Positions 44,164 to 55,485 of a stretch of 64,000 nt of DNA are shown here, in pieces. The DNA is from Typha latifolia (taxonomy: Eukaryota > Streptophyta > Magnoliopsida > Poales > Typhaceae). Within the stretch, counting starts at the first letter, position 1. Every line of letters starts with the position of its first letter. The stretch spans positions 9,610,001-9,674,000 of the forward strand of contig CM034103.1 of the NCBI GenBank assembly GCA_019914945.1. Reading direction: 5' to 3'. The translations under genes were made by a program, and so were the position numbers. Below the pieces are notes generated by a model. That model was given only the letters and a program-made list of their open reading frames with translations, made no database searches and was not told the DNA's origin.

Positions 44164-44363
44164 AACCACCAATCCGACGACTACATTAGGAAGTGGTGTC
44201 TATGGGCGGATGCCAATCCACCAGCACCGCCTTGGAAACCTACAGAGAGGGCAAACCTGTAATTTACCTGAAAAAAATGAAGGGTAAATGCGTCAACCGC
44301 TGGTGCCCTAAATCGTAATCCTTGAAACGAAGGGCTTCCTTCCCCTTTCTCCTTTTCCACTCG

Positions 44364-44371
44364 TATAAATA
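44364..44371 (+). promoter_or_regulatory. TATA box of the eIF5 gene
   Basis: TATAAATA in a CTCG-rich context, with the first exon beginning about 25-35 bases later (around 44396). Confidence 0.75.
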
Positions 44372-44395
44372 CTCCGATCTCGCTACCAATTCCCC

Positions 44396-44468
44396 ACAAA
44401 TTTCCAGAGAACGGAAGAGCGTTTTGCAGTTTGCGGCTAAGAAGTTCTCCTCCGCGATCCCATCAAAG
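44396..44468 (+). other. eIF5 non-coding first exon
   Basis: A purine-mixed leader from about 44396 ends at CATCAAAG with donor GTGAAA at 44469. The matching acceptor is GATTCAG at 46327, giving an intron of about 1.86 kb inside the 5'UTR. The intron is T-rich, with an (AT)n run near 45863-45898. No ATG lies in this exon. The start is set from the TATA box. Confidence 0.7.
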
Positions 44469-46397
44469 GTGAAATTTCTCATCTCGATCTCTCTCCCTAA
44501 TCGGTTTGGAGTTCTTTTGATCGGTTATCCCATAAATGTTGGTGTTGTTGCATGGAGTTTTTATTTGCGTATCATCGGATCGGATCGGATCTGTGGTGAT
44601 TCGTTTTCTTTTTTCTTTTTTTTTATTTTGTTTGATTCAGTGTCGTCAGGGTTGTCTTTGTGCAATTTTTTTTTTCTGGTGGTTAGATCGGAGGTCGATG
44701 ATTCTTTGTTTATTATTTCTTCTGTGTAATTGAAGTTTGAAGTGTAGTTTGGCTTTGGATGAACATGAGGGCTTAACTTTCCTAGTCATTAGAGTTTAAA
44801 GGCATTGATAAATTTAACTACTCGTTGATTTTGTTGGATTTCAATGATGAGAATACATGCTGGAATCTGCTATCATTTGTTTGAGCTCTATTCTTGTTTT
44901 ACGATAGATTTTTCTTGTCACTGTTTGTGTTCCAAAGTTTTTTTGTAATTGGATATAAACATGAGCATGAATTAGTTCTATCTGCGTATTATTCTCCATT
45001 CAGGTAGGTCTCTGAGGAAGCTGATGACAATTAATATGAAGTGTTGGTCTATTGCTACTTCTTTATATTCTATGTACCATATACTTTTAAGAGGTTTAGC
45101 CATTGTTAGATTTGGTGTGAAAGATCAACTTTATCTGGCATTTATTTCTGCTGGCAATTCACTTAGGCATGATGATTGAATATAATTATTTACAGATATT
45201 ATAAATTGTACTTAAAAATTCAACATTGGGTACAACCTGGATAATGCCTGGACGGAGCCTTTCTCCTATGATGAAAACAACAATTGGAAATGGTTAGGGG
45301 TTGAGAACCTTGCTACTATGTAATAGGCCCTTGGATTGAGAATAATAAGTGAAATTGTTGTTAATATTTCATATGCTGCTAAACAAAAGGAGGAATAACC
45401 TGAGGAGGAGTTCAACAGTCGAGTCTGATTCACTATGGTTAGGGAATGATTGACCAAGACATTCTGGAATGTTAATAACTTTTGAAATGACAATTACAGA
45501 ATCAAGGCATCACAGAATGCTTTGAAGATATAAGTAATGACTTAGAAAATATTATTTGAATTCAGTATTGTAATTTACTTTAGCCAATATGAAATGTTTT
45601 CATTTTACAAGTTCATATACAGTAGGAACATGTCTTCGTGTGAAACAATATTAGTGTGACAATTGATGAATTGCTTGCTGAGGAGAAATTAGTTATGAGT
45701 AGTGAAAAAATATAACAGTACTTTTTTTTTTTCGTGCTGCTTCCATGAGCTTAGTTTTGCTTTTTTATTTCATTTGCCTTCTTTTGTTGTTATTCCTGAA
45801 ATGGTGGTCATCATCTAGATCTACTTTTTTTGGTGGTTTAGTGTTTGATGCTCTAATAGTCTAATATATATATAAATAAATATATATATATATATATAAT
45901 GAGGTAATATGTTGTGATCTCTTTTTTCTTTTCTTTTTTCCCTTGCTCTGCTCCAGTCGCCTGGTCAGTGGCATGGCGAGTTGCTTCTGAGCAGTAACCT
46001 AATAGGAAGAATGCTTGTGTTTGGTAAAGTGAATGTTGTTTACCAAACAGTCAAGGTGTTAGCTAATGTATCATCCCTTGCTTCATGAAGTCATGAAGAG
46101 AGCTAGGAGCTTTCTTTAGCTAATATTAATGTTCCCTGTCAGAGTGAGGAATGACTTATTCATGAGGTCATGCTATTTACAGGATACATCAAGATGATCA
46201 ATATGCTTTTCTTACAGTAATGTATCTTGTTATAATAGTTTGTGTGAAAAATCAGTTATTCCGCTTATAGCCAATAATTTAGTAGTTTTCTCCTCTTTAA
46301 TCACATATTATCTGTGTTCTGATTCAGGAAGTTCACATTTCAAGTCTTCTTGTTGCACCTTGCCAAGGTGAAGGGCGTTAAGCTTGAAGTTTCTTTT

Positions 46398-46631
46398 ATG
46401 TCTGGACAAGTCTCTGTCTATTTGGGATCAGTTGGATTGCTTGGAGAATACTCTCCTTTATCAACAAAAAGGCACGGGCTCTCCTTCGAGAGTTTTGGCT
46501 GCATGCATCACAAGCCTCTTTGGCATTTTAGAGAAAGGGTTGGTTGCTGCTGTAACCGACCTCTTGTCTTCGCAGAATATCAGACTGGTGTTCTTGGAAA
46601 CAACACTACTTTTGCTTCTGGTTATTGCTAG
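46398..46631 (+). CDS. Upstream ORF in the eIF5 leader, 77 codons
   Basis: In the second leader exon (from 46328) the first ATG opens a 77-codon frame (MSGQVSVYLG...) that ends 47 bases before the eIF5 ATG. Its ATG has T at -3 and T at +4, a weak context, so scanning ribosomes may often pass it. A conserved-peptide upstream ORF has, as I recall, been described for plant eIF5 genes; whether this is that peptide needs comparison. A second, overlapping frame (about 46372-46656) without ATG is also long and looks more protein-like: it holds CLENTLLYQQKG and a hydrophobic end LLLLLVIASAYIL. Confidence 0.6.
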   Translation: MSGQVSVYLGSVGLLGEYSPLSTKRHGLSFESFGCMHHKPLWHFRERVGCCCNRPLVFAEYQTGVLGNNTTFASGYC

Positions 46632-46678
46632 CGCTTATATCCTTAGCATCTCTTGATTAAAAAAAAAACTTTGACCTC

Positions 46679-48058
46679 ATGGCGCTGCAAAATATTGGTG
46701 CTTCAAACAGCGATGATGCCTTCTATAGGTATAAGATGCCCAAGATGATAACTAAAATAGAAGGACGGGGGAATGGCATCAAGACTAACATTGTGAACAT
46801 GGTGGATATAGCAAAGGCACTTGCCAGGCCTGCTTCCTACACCACAAAGTATTTTGGTTGCGAGCTTGGGGCACAGTCCAAATTTGATGAAAAGACTGGG
46901 ATTTCCTTGGTAAATGGGGCCCATGATACTGCTAAGCTGGCTGGTCTTCTTGAAAATTTCATCAAGAAGTATGTGCAGTGTTATGGATGTGGCAACCCTG
47001 AGACCGAGATTATCATCACCAAGACACAAATGATCACACTGAAATGTGCTGCCTGTGGCTTTTTATCTGACGTTGATATGAGGGACAAGCTGACAACATT
47101 CATCCTGAAGAACCCACCTGAACAGAAGAAAGGAGGGAAAGAGAAGAAGGCATTAAGAAGGGCAGAGAAGGAGCGATTGAAGGAAGGAGATGCTGCTGAT
47201 GAGGAGCAGAAGAAGTTGAAGAAGGAAGCAAAGAAGAAAGGTGTCACTACAAAGGATGGCACTTCTGCAAAGGCTGCGGCTGTGAAGAAGAAAGCTAGTG
47301 GTGGCTCTGATGAAGATCGTTCAACTTCACCTGGTGGGAGTCAGAATGGCGATAATGGTGTTGCAGATAATGACGATGATGATGACATCCAGTGGCAGAC
47401 GGATACATCATTGGAGGCTGCAAAACAGCGAATTCAAGAACAACTGAGTGCTGCAACTGCAGACATGGTAATGCTCTCAACTAGTGAGCATGAACAGGAA
47501 AAGAAAAAGGAGGCAGCAAAGAAAGAGGTACCTACTAATGGGACCACAAAGTCCCAAGAAAAATCTGGTGCTGGACAAAATGGTGTTAAAGCTAATACTT
47601 TTGTTAAACTGGTTGAGGAGATTAAGGCTAATTTGAAAAAGGGTTGCAAGCCGAGGGAAGTCCAGAGTGTTCTGAATTCTGTAGCTCAACCTCCTCAGGA
47701 AGTGATGAATGCCCTGTTTGAGGCACTCTTTGGTGGTGCTGGCAAAGGATTCGCGAAGGAGGTGGGCAAGAAAAAGAACTATCTTGCTGCTGCCGTGCAA
47801 GATGAAGGATCTCAGAAGCTTCTGCTCCAAGCTATTGAATCTTTCTGTAGCAAATGCAGTGCAGATGCTATGAAGGAGGTGGCACTTGTTCTCAAGGCCC
47901 TTTACGATGGAGATGTGCTTGAGGAAGAAAACATAGTTCAATGGTACAATGAAGGTGCAGCAAGTGGCAAAAATGGCAAAAGCACTCAGGTCTTGATGAA
48001 TGCAAAACCTTTTGTGGAATGGCTGCAGAGCGCTGAGTCTGAGTCAGAGGAAGAGTGA
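46679..48058 (+). CDS. EIF5: Eukaryotic translation initiation factor 5 (eIF5), 459 aa
   Basis: eIF5 is the GTPase-activating protein for eIF2 in the pre-initiation complex and controls start-codon selection. The N-terminal domain carries FYRYKMPK, whose Arg17 corresponds to the catalytic arginine of yeast and human eIF5. The block GRGNGIKTNIVNMVDIAKAL follows. A zinc ribbon has Cys101, Cys104, Cys123 and Cys126, and TFILKNPPEQ closes the domain. A Lys/Glu-rich linker (about 140-310) leads to a C-terminal W2/HEAT domain (about 315-455) with the two acidic/aromatic boxes EEENIVQWYNEG and FVEWLQSAESESEEE. The CDS has no intron. Length is right for plant eIF5 (about 430-460 aa). The ATG has C at -3 but G at +4. 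The leader holds long upstream frames, which suggests translational control. Confidence 0.97.
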   Translation: MALQNIGASNSDDAFYRYKMPKMITKIEGRGNGIKTNIVNMVDIAKALARPASYTTKYFGCELGAQSKFDEKTGISLVNGAHDTAKLAGLLENFIKKYVQCYGCGNPETEIIITKTQMITLKCAACGFLSDVDMRDKLTTFILKNPPEQKKGGKEKKALRRAEKERLKEGDAADEEQKKLKKEAKKKGVTTKDGTSAKAAAVKKKASGGSDEDRSTSPGGSQNGDNGVADNDDDDDIQWQTDTSLEAAKQRIQEQLSAATADMVMLSTSEHEQEKKKEAAKKEVPTNGTTKSQEKSGAGQNGVKANTFVKLVEEIKANLKKGCKPREVQSVLNSVAQPPQEVMNALFEALFGGAGKGFAKEVGKKKNYLAAAVQDEGSQKLLLQAIESFCSKCSADAMKEVALVLKALYDGDVLEEENIVQWYNEGAASGKNGKSTQVLMNAKPFVEWLQSAESESEEE

Positions 48059-49380
48059 AGTATCTGACATCATCCTGGACTGTTAGACTATTACTGTGTT
48101 TCTATGAGAGTAGTCGATATATATATCCGTACTGGTCTGCATGCTTTTAGTAAGTAGTATGTGTGAGTTTTATTTAGTTGGGAATGTTCTTGTTATCGTT
48201 GGTTCTACATTTTAAGGTTGTGGGTAGTAAGTGCTACGTGAGTTTATCCTTTCGACTTGGCATGCGTCCTCTGTTGTTGAATGAACTCGAAATACTGAAC
48301 ACTTTAAATAAATATTTGCATATTAGTTGAAATATTCCAGTATTATGCTGTTCATCCGATTACTGCTAGTGCTAGTGCTAGTGCTAGTGCTAGTGCTGTT
48401 GGCAATTTTATGCAGAGATAAATTTTGTGGGCTCGAATGGCAGAAGCCGGCAGCCTTCAAGATTACATAATTTACATGAAATGTAGATTTCTGTTGTAAA
48501 ATTGCAGATGTAAGTGTTGAGTGAATCTTTGGTAAGTTAGGCAGTGGCAAGGACTTTTACTAGTACAGGATCTGGGAGTATTAGCTGTAGCCTGTAGGCA
48601 GTCTCATCCTCGTTATATTATATAAACTCCTGATTCGTCTTCTATCATTTGTAGCAAGGGTTTTGCTGATTATGGGTGATCTAGGGAGGGCAATTCTAAT
48701 TTTATCATATGCAAACTTAGACGAGGGTTCAGGGAATACATGACATAGGCAATTCTAATTTTAGAACTCAGGCTTCATATTGAGGCTGCGTCTAGGCTCG
48801 TTACATCTCAAAAGAATTAAGTTGGATAACTACGCCAATCCACTTGTAAGAAACCGGACATGATGGCCAACCTAGGACGCGTAACACTCACACCGGGCAT
48901 CTCATTTTGACTAAGATTGCCCACGTTTTGACTATATTGTGCACGTCCTTATTACCCAACATTTAAAACCTTGCAACGAACTATTAGTTACAAAATCATG
49001 CTAAGAATCCAGGGTTAAGTTTCAACCACATCATTTAGTTTCTGAATTTCCAATGCAGAATTAAGGAAGTAAACAATTTCCAACTCTACAATGGATCAGA
49101 CTAGAGAAATACTCCAAACATAAAACACAGAATATGTAGTTTTGAAGTGCTTGTCATCTTGATGCAACAAGTTAAACAAATCCCAAATTATTTATTGGGT
49201 AACAAGAACTCCTCAGAGCAAGCACTTGCTCTTATGCTAAAAGCAAAAAAGTTCGGAGACAACTGACGGAGGAAAATGAAAATCATTATAGAAAAAAAGC
49301 CGGCGTGAAAATGGAACTAGCAGGATACAGGTATCATCACCTGCGTGATATAAATTATTGTTTAAAGAAAAAGATCTTTA
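48059..49380. other. Convergent intergenic region, eIF5 and ATP synthase beta 3' ends
   Basis: It holds both 3'UTRs. No gene is seen. A GCTAGT hexamer is repeated five times at 48365-48394, and AATAAATA at about 48307 could be a poly(A) signal for eIF5. Confidence 0.6.
48365..48394 (+). repeat. (GCTAGT)5 hexamer microsatellite
   Basis: Five perfect units followed by GCTGTT, about 310 bases after the eIF5 stop, in or just past its 3'UTR. Confidence 0.95.

Positions 49381-55485
<6,105 letters not shown>

Follow-up and report, generated by a model that had tools for sequence, protein, structure and literature searches.

An upstream open reading frame ahead of eIF5 in Typha latifolia assigned to the plant eIF5 conserved-peptide uORFs, with an overlapping ATG-less frame read as incidental

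The upstream open reading frames of plant eIF5 genes are listed among the conserved-peptide uORFs (CPuORFs) as homology group 7 (PMC2075485, PMC3426882). For the Arabidopsis gene At1g36730, CPuORF19 is placed in homology group 7a and in class II, in which the N-terminal or middle part of the peptide, or the whole peptide, is conserved, and it is said to have been conserved since bryophytes and angiosperms diverged (PMC9305500). As that source describes, mutation of the CPuORF19 AUG gives higher reporter activity both in wheat germ extract and in plants, also in the native 5' UTR, and the reporter rises about 19-fold with mannitol and falls with heat. Ribosome profiling cited in the same paper describes CPuORF19 as translated and stalling; PARE reads from Arabidopsis, however, show no stalling where CPuORF19 terminates, so a peptide-specific mechanism is no more than a possibility (PMC9305500). 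Ribosomal-protein mutations that raise SAC51 translation leave an At1g36730 reporter unraised, according to PMC11913374.

Feedback by eIF5 on its own synthesis through poor-context uORFs is described for human cells (Loughran and others 2011, as cited in PMC3426882 and PMC5823381), and feedback through a uORF in plants is put forward as a suggestion in PMC3426882. Near-cognate start codons are also said to respond to the level of eIF5 (PMC5823381, PMC5487733).

Here we analysed a window of 64,000 nt from Typha latifolia, a monocot of Poales with a 214-Mb, 62-contig assembly. The eIF5 protein encoded in the window is 99% identical to the Typha angustifolia eIF5 record (P0001), and the features of the locus are collected in Table 1. 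Judging from sequence signals, a single intron appears to interrupt the eIF5 leader, with its donor (CATCAAAG/GTGAAA) after 44468 and its acceptor at 46327/46328; these splice signals agree with the second 5' exon of the original prediction, which stays an inferred exon. A TATA-like TATAAATA lies at 44364, and the start of exon 1 is a guess, set 30 bases past this site. Every exon 1 limit, as well as the exon 2 start of one paralog (gene C below), was read from splice and TATA-like signals. The first ATG of the inferred leader is that of the uORF, and the only other leader ATG, at 46503, shares its frame, which leaves the overlapping frame without an ATG.

Table 1. Features of the eIF5 locus, in window coordinates
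Feature	Position	Strand	Basis or remark
Leader exon 1 (inferred)	44394..44468	+	Sequence signals alone; no ATG inside
Exon 2, leader part	46328..46678	+	Acceptor GATTCAG/GAAG at 46327/46328; alignment with two paralogs
Candidate N-terminal extension of the uORF, 12 codons	46362..46397	+	Paralog frame test; Tetracentron and Dichanthelium matches; Dioscorea decoding
In-frame GTG, codon -10, candidate near-cognate start	46368..46370	+	A at -3
ATG uORF, 77 codons and stop	46398..46631	+	Plant eIF5 CPuORF, homology group 7/7a type
Overlapping ATG-less open register, 94 codons stop to stop, +1 to the ATG frame	46372..46656	+	Read as by-product
eIF5 main ORF	46679..48058	+	459 residues, read without intron; Pfam PF01873 and PF02020

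Several other features stand near the main ORF. A run of ten A occupies 46659-46668, just 5' of the main ATG, and is absent from the aligned sequences of the two paralogs. A short tandem repeat of GCTAGT units lies at about 48364-48398, 3' of the eIF5 stop codon. The end of a reading frame on the minus strand, 37 residues at about 49381-49494, presumably encodes the C-terminus of mitochondrial ATP synthase beta. The Musa banksii eIF5 record (P0066) carries a stretch much like this frame end, fused ahead of eIF5, so both genes may adjoin in Musa too.

The ATG frame that had been predicted at 46398-46631 holds at these coordinates, and the start contexts claimed with it are confirmed, position -3 being T for the uORF ATG and C for the main ATG; the bases at +4 are T and G, respectively. 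A Pfam PF01873 search of the genome found three full-length eIF5 genes, namely the window gene (A) and the paralogs B (L009) and C (L008), together with four partial domain matches at two further places. The context of the uORF ATG, TCTTTTATGTC, is poor and conserved, being identical in all three genes. In a six-frame search of the genome, the uORF peptide matched three places, each ahead of one eIF5 gene (E values of 9.2e-67, 3.9e-23 and 7.8e-12), and across the whole genome it was found nowhere away from the three full eIF5 genes. The ATG frame is beyond chance, since it recurs in all three full eIF5 genes of this genome. Scans with the uORF alignment returned 22 pattern matches in the genome and 26 in viral contigs, none of them confirmed as a relative. 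Pfam matched neither upstream peptide, and a protein search with the 101-residue ATG frame (46326-46628) returned no candidate with three common words; the database searched does include plant eIF5 proteins, and blank protein searches of this kind say little because leader peptides are rarely annotated as proteins.

Alignment of the three paralogous uORF peptides gives 20 invariant columns, 17 of which fall within the first 37 residues, and the remainder is variable, which is the pattern of class II. Over the first 40 codons of the ATG frame, dN/dS is 0.31 between A and C and 0.27 between B and C. Two results speak against a CPuORF: peptide selection is slight in A-B, the closest pair (dN/dS of 0.80), and divergence is quicker in the uORF than in the main ORF (A-B dN of 0.34 versus 0.11).

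Five eIF5 proteins longer than 500 residues were present among the 120 matches listed of 4374, and all five were inspected. The ATG-frame peptide precedes eIF5 in the gene models of Tetracentron sinense (P0067) and Dichanthelium oligosanthes (P0072), and in Dioscorea zingiberensis (P0016, 601 aa) the overlapping register is joined to eIF5 as an N-terminal extension. The other two records (P0005 and P0066) contain neither the ATG-frame peptide nor the overlapping register. We take the N-terminal extensions of these records to be gene-model artefacts that preserve leader sequence, as that of P0016 probably is. The frame, the start context and the peptide core recur in the three Typha paralogs, and the core is also present in other plants.

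On the basis of its gene, its position in the leader, its conservation pattern and its presence across lineages, we assign the ATG frame to homology group 7/7a, the published peptides having been compared by description and not letter by letter. The uORF lies in an eIF5 leader, and its peptide is conserved among homologous eIF5 genes. The conserved-peptide uORF that the prediction mentioned for plant eIF5 is in print as homology group 7, and the Typha ATG frame fits it. The Typha uORF shares with CPuORF19 and homology group 7a the main gene, the place in the leader and a conserved N-terminal and middle part; the published accounts find the group across land plants. It differs in that gene A carries C at -3 of its main ATG, where its two paralogs carry A (46676-46681 compared with L009 and L008), so gene A may be the most strongly held back of the three.

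The best joint explanation, to which we give a probability of roughly 0.85, is that the ATG frame is the Typha eIF5 CPuORF, working through leaky scanning and feedback, and that the overlapping frame is incidental. Scanning ribosomes would reach the uORF ATG first, and its poor context (U at -3 and +4) would let only some of them initiate there. The ribosomes that initiate on the uORF would mostly be lost to the main ORF, having 77 codons to translate and then just 47 nt before the main ATG, and those that leak past the uORF ATG would make eIF5. A rise in eIF5 would favour poor-context AUGs, leading to more use of the uORF and less eIF5. Such negative feedback may be tuned further by water status and by the conserved peptide, with relief under certain conditions. 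For Typha, we infer all three of uORF translation, leaky scanning and feedback; repression of the main ORF by the uORF and a response to mannitol are published for Arabidopsis. The arrangement resembles the autoregulatory uORFs of animal eIF5 in having a poor-context uORF start ahead of eIF5, which suits feedback through start stringency. It differs from them in that the feedback was tested in human cells, and the sources consulted describe no such experiment for the eIF5 uORF of a plant.

It is possible, if rather unlikely, that the CPuORF also has a longer form, in which ribosomes start upstream at an in-frame near-cognate codon, likeliest the GUG at 46368, and make an N-terminally extended peptide. 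Both starts, the near-cognate one and the weak AUG, would then sense the level of eIF5. The ATG frame is conserved for about 12 codons 5' of its ATG in six sequences from four plant genera, and upstream of the ATG it is the only frame open through exon 2 in all three Typha genes (its open lengths of 48, 30 and 41 codons in the inferred spliced leaders were given no weight). The last 12 upstream codons read AKVKGVKLEVSF in A, AKVEAANIEVSF in B and ARVEGVKCRKSF in C, and the corresponding residues are VKVDRVYFEASF in Tetracentron and DKVEGLGVAASF in Dichanthelium. Codon -10 is GTG with A at -3 in each Typha gene, Val follows Lys at this codon in Tetracentron and Dichanthelium, and the Dioscorea codon, decoded from protein, must be GTG or ATG. 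The +4 base of this GTG is G in B and C; gene A, against a start at this codon, has A there.

Over these 12 codons, the BLOSUM62 sum for the three paralogs is 90 in the ATG frame versus 35 and 41 in the other frames. Over the 39-codon core, the same measure fails to separate the frames (325, 270 and 315) and was therefore not used there; since this failure also weakens its use upstream, shuffle tests were added for the 12 upstream codons. Column shuffles reach 90 at P = 0.024 (0.020 without the last two codons), but among shuffles open in all three genes P is 0.067 (0.058 without the last two codons). Tetracentron and Dichanthelium resemble each Typha gene in all six comparisons, with shuffle P values of 0.0001-0.0022, or 0.006-0.038 when the last two residues are left out. 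For Dioscorea, the DNA deduced from the protein allows a Typha residue at all 12 upstream positions, compared with a mean of 6.4 for shuffles (P = 0.001). Against an extended peptide, the DNA-level comparison covers three related paralogs alone, upstream differences lean weakly to third positions (2, 2, 4; 4, 4, 6; 3, 6, 6), and the conserved TCTTTT may be retained as poor start context. In Arabidopsis, moreover, mutation of the uORF ATG itself is described as sufficient to raise the reporter, native 5' UTR included (PMC9305500).

Neurospora cpc-1 offers a parallel in its published description, in that a frame is open and conserved 5' of an annotated AUG and contains near-cognate codons (PMC5487733). 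In that gene it is the main ORF that gains the extension, with initiation demonstrated in cell extracts, whereas here a candidate extension of a uORF is read from sequence. A non-AUG start of a plant eIF5 uORF is not reported in the titles and abstract openings of the papers listed, an incomplete survey from which we claim no novelty. A non-AUG layer, should one exist, would on this evidence lie in the ATG's own frame rather than in the overlapping frame.

There is a slim chance that conservation acts on the RNA or DNA, through structure, splicing or binding signals, and not on a peptide. The A-B differences in the uORF are spread evenly over codon positions (8, 11 and 9), and synonymous codons are retained in this pair, as such conservation would have it. 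However, the RNA folding of exon 2 (46328-46700) is ordinary (z of -0.60, with 24 of 100 shuffles at least as stable), and an Rfam search of 44300-48100 gave two matches only, both far below their gathering scores. The low dN/dS of the two distant pairs (0.31 and 0.27) also favours a peptide, and the published descriptions treat homology group 7 as a conserved peptide.

The overlapping ATG-less frame had been predicted to end 22 bases before the main ATG, which we verified, and to read like a real peptide with a hydrophobic C-terminus. The frame is open, but this C-terminus is not common to the paralogs: counted from the uORF ATG, the +1 register stops at +256 in gene A and at +169 and +136 in its paralogs, so the hydrophobic end belongs to gene A alone. 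To assess openness, each uORF peptide was held and its codons were drawn at random. Over the first 40 codons, chance alone leaves the +1 register open in 25% (A), 45% (B) and 28% (C) of draws; for the full uORF the figures are 17%, 13% and 6%. The actual register runs without a stop through 40 codons in every gene and through the whole uORF in A alone. The third register has a stop at the second codon in two of the three genes.

The dN/dS comparison proposed with the prediction, made here on the three paralogs, goes against the overlapping frame, with 1.10 (A-C) and 1.07 (B-C) compared with 0.31 and 0.27 in the ATG frame; the closest pair, A-B, does not discriminate between them (0.67 versus 0.80). 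Over 38 residues, the overlapping frame is identical at 25 (A-B), 16 (A-C) and 15 (B-C) positions, and the ATG frame at 24, 22 and 21. A protein search with the 94-residue overlapping frame gave six candidates, none at E <= 10.

Translation of the overlapping frame as well, from a near-cognate start such as the TTG at 46384 or the CTG at 46402, has several observations in its favour. Its register is open over the 40-codon core in all three paralogs, and its A-B identity equals the level of the ATG frame. In the A-B core (46398-46517 compared with L009 3204-3323), synonymous codons are kept at 19 of 22 sites, while 13.7 are expected from the main ORF (P = 0.012), and the synonymous divergence of 0.269 is below that of all 83 overlapping 40-codon stretches of the main ORF. 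The Dioscorea eIF5 record also has the register, with 22 of 38 residues identical to gene A. However, codon retention is not raised in the A-C and B-C pairs (P = 0.28 and 0.27), where 8 of 82 and 13 of 81 main-ORF stretches are equally low in synonymous divergence, and in one paralog a stop lies 20 nt 5' of the uORF ATG. The Dioscorea sequence came to notice only because the overlapping register is open there, and at 33 of 38 uORF positions its implied DNA is consistent with a Typha residue of the ATG frame, against a mean of 11.8 for shuffles, so the ATG frame suffices to explain its register. Dual coding is therefore hardly tenable, given dN/dS near 1 in two of three pairs, unshared stops, openness attainable by chance (P of 0.17-0.45), a 94-residue peptide with no database match and a Dioscorea case explained by the ATG frame.

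A gene in the overlapping frame was rejected as the best reading, and we read this frame as an incidental by-product of the ATG frame; the extra layer of control once proposed for it is left unsupported by its chance openness of 0.17, its unshared stops and its dN/dS.

The analysis puts the eIF5 uORF of cattail, in this gene and in both paralogs, among the CPuORFs already known for plant eIF5, and argues against a tempting dual-coding reading of the leader. If the upstream conservation holds in a wider DNA alignment, CPuORF annotations that begin at the ATG would miss the true start, and eIF5 would then offer a direct test of plant near-cognate codons as sensors of start stringency.
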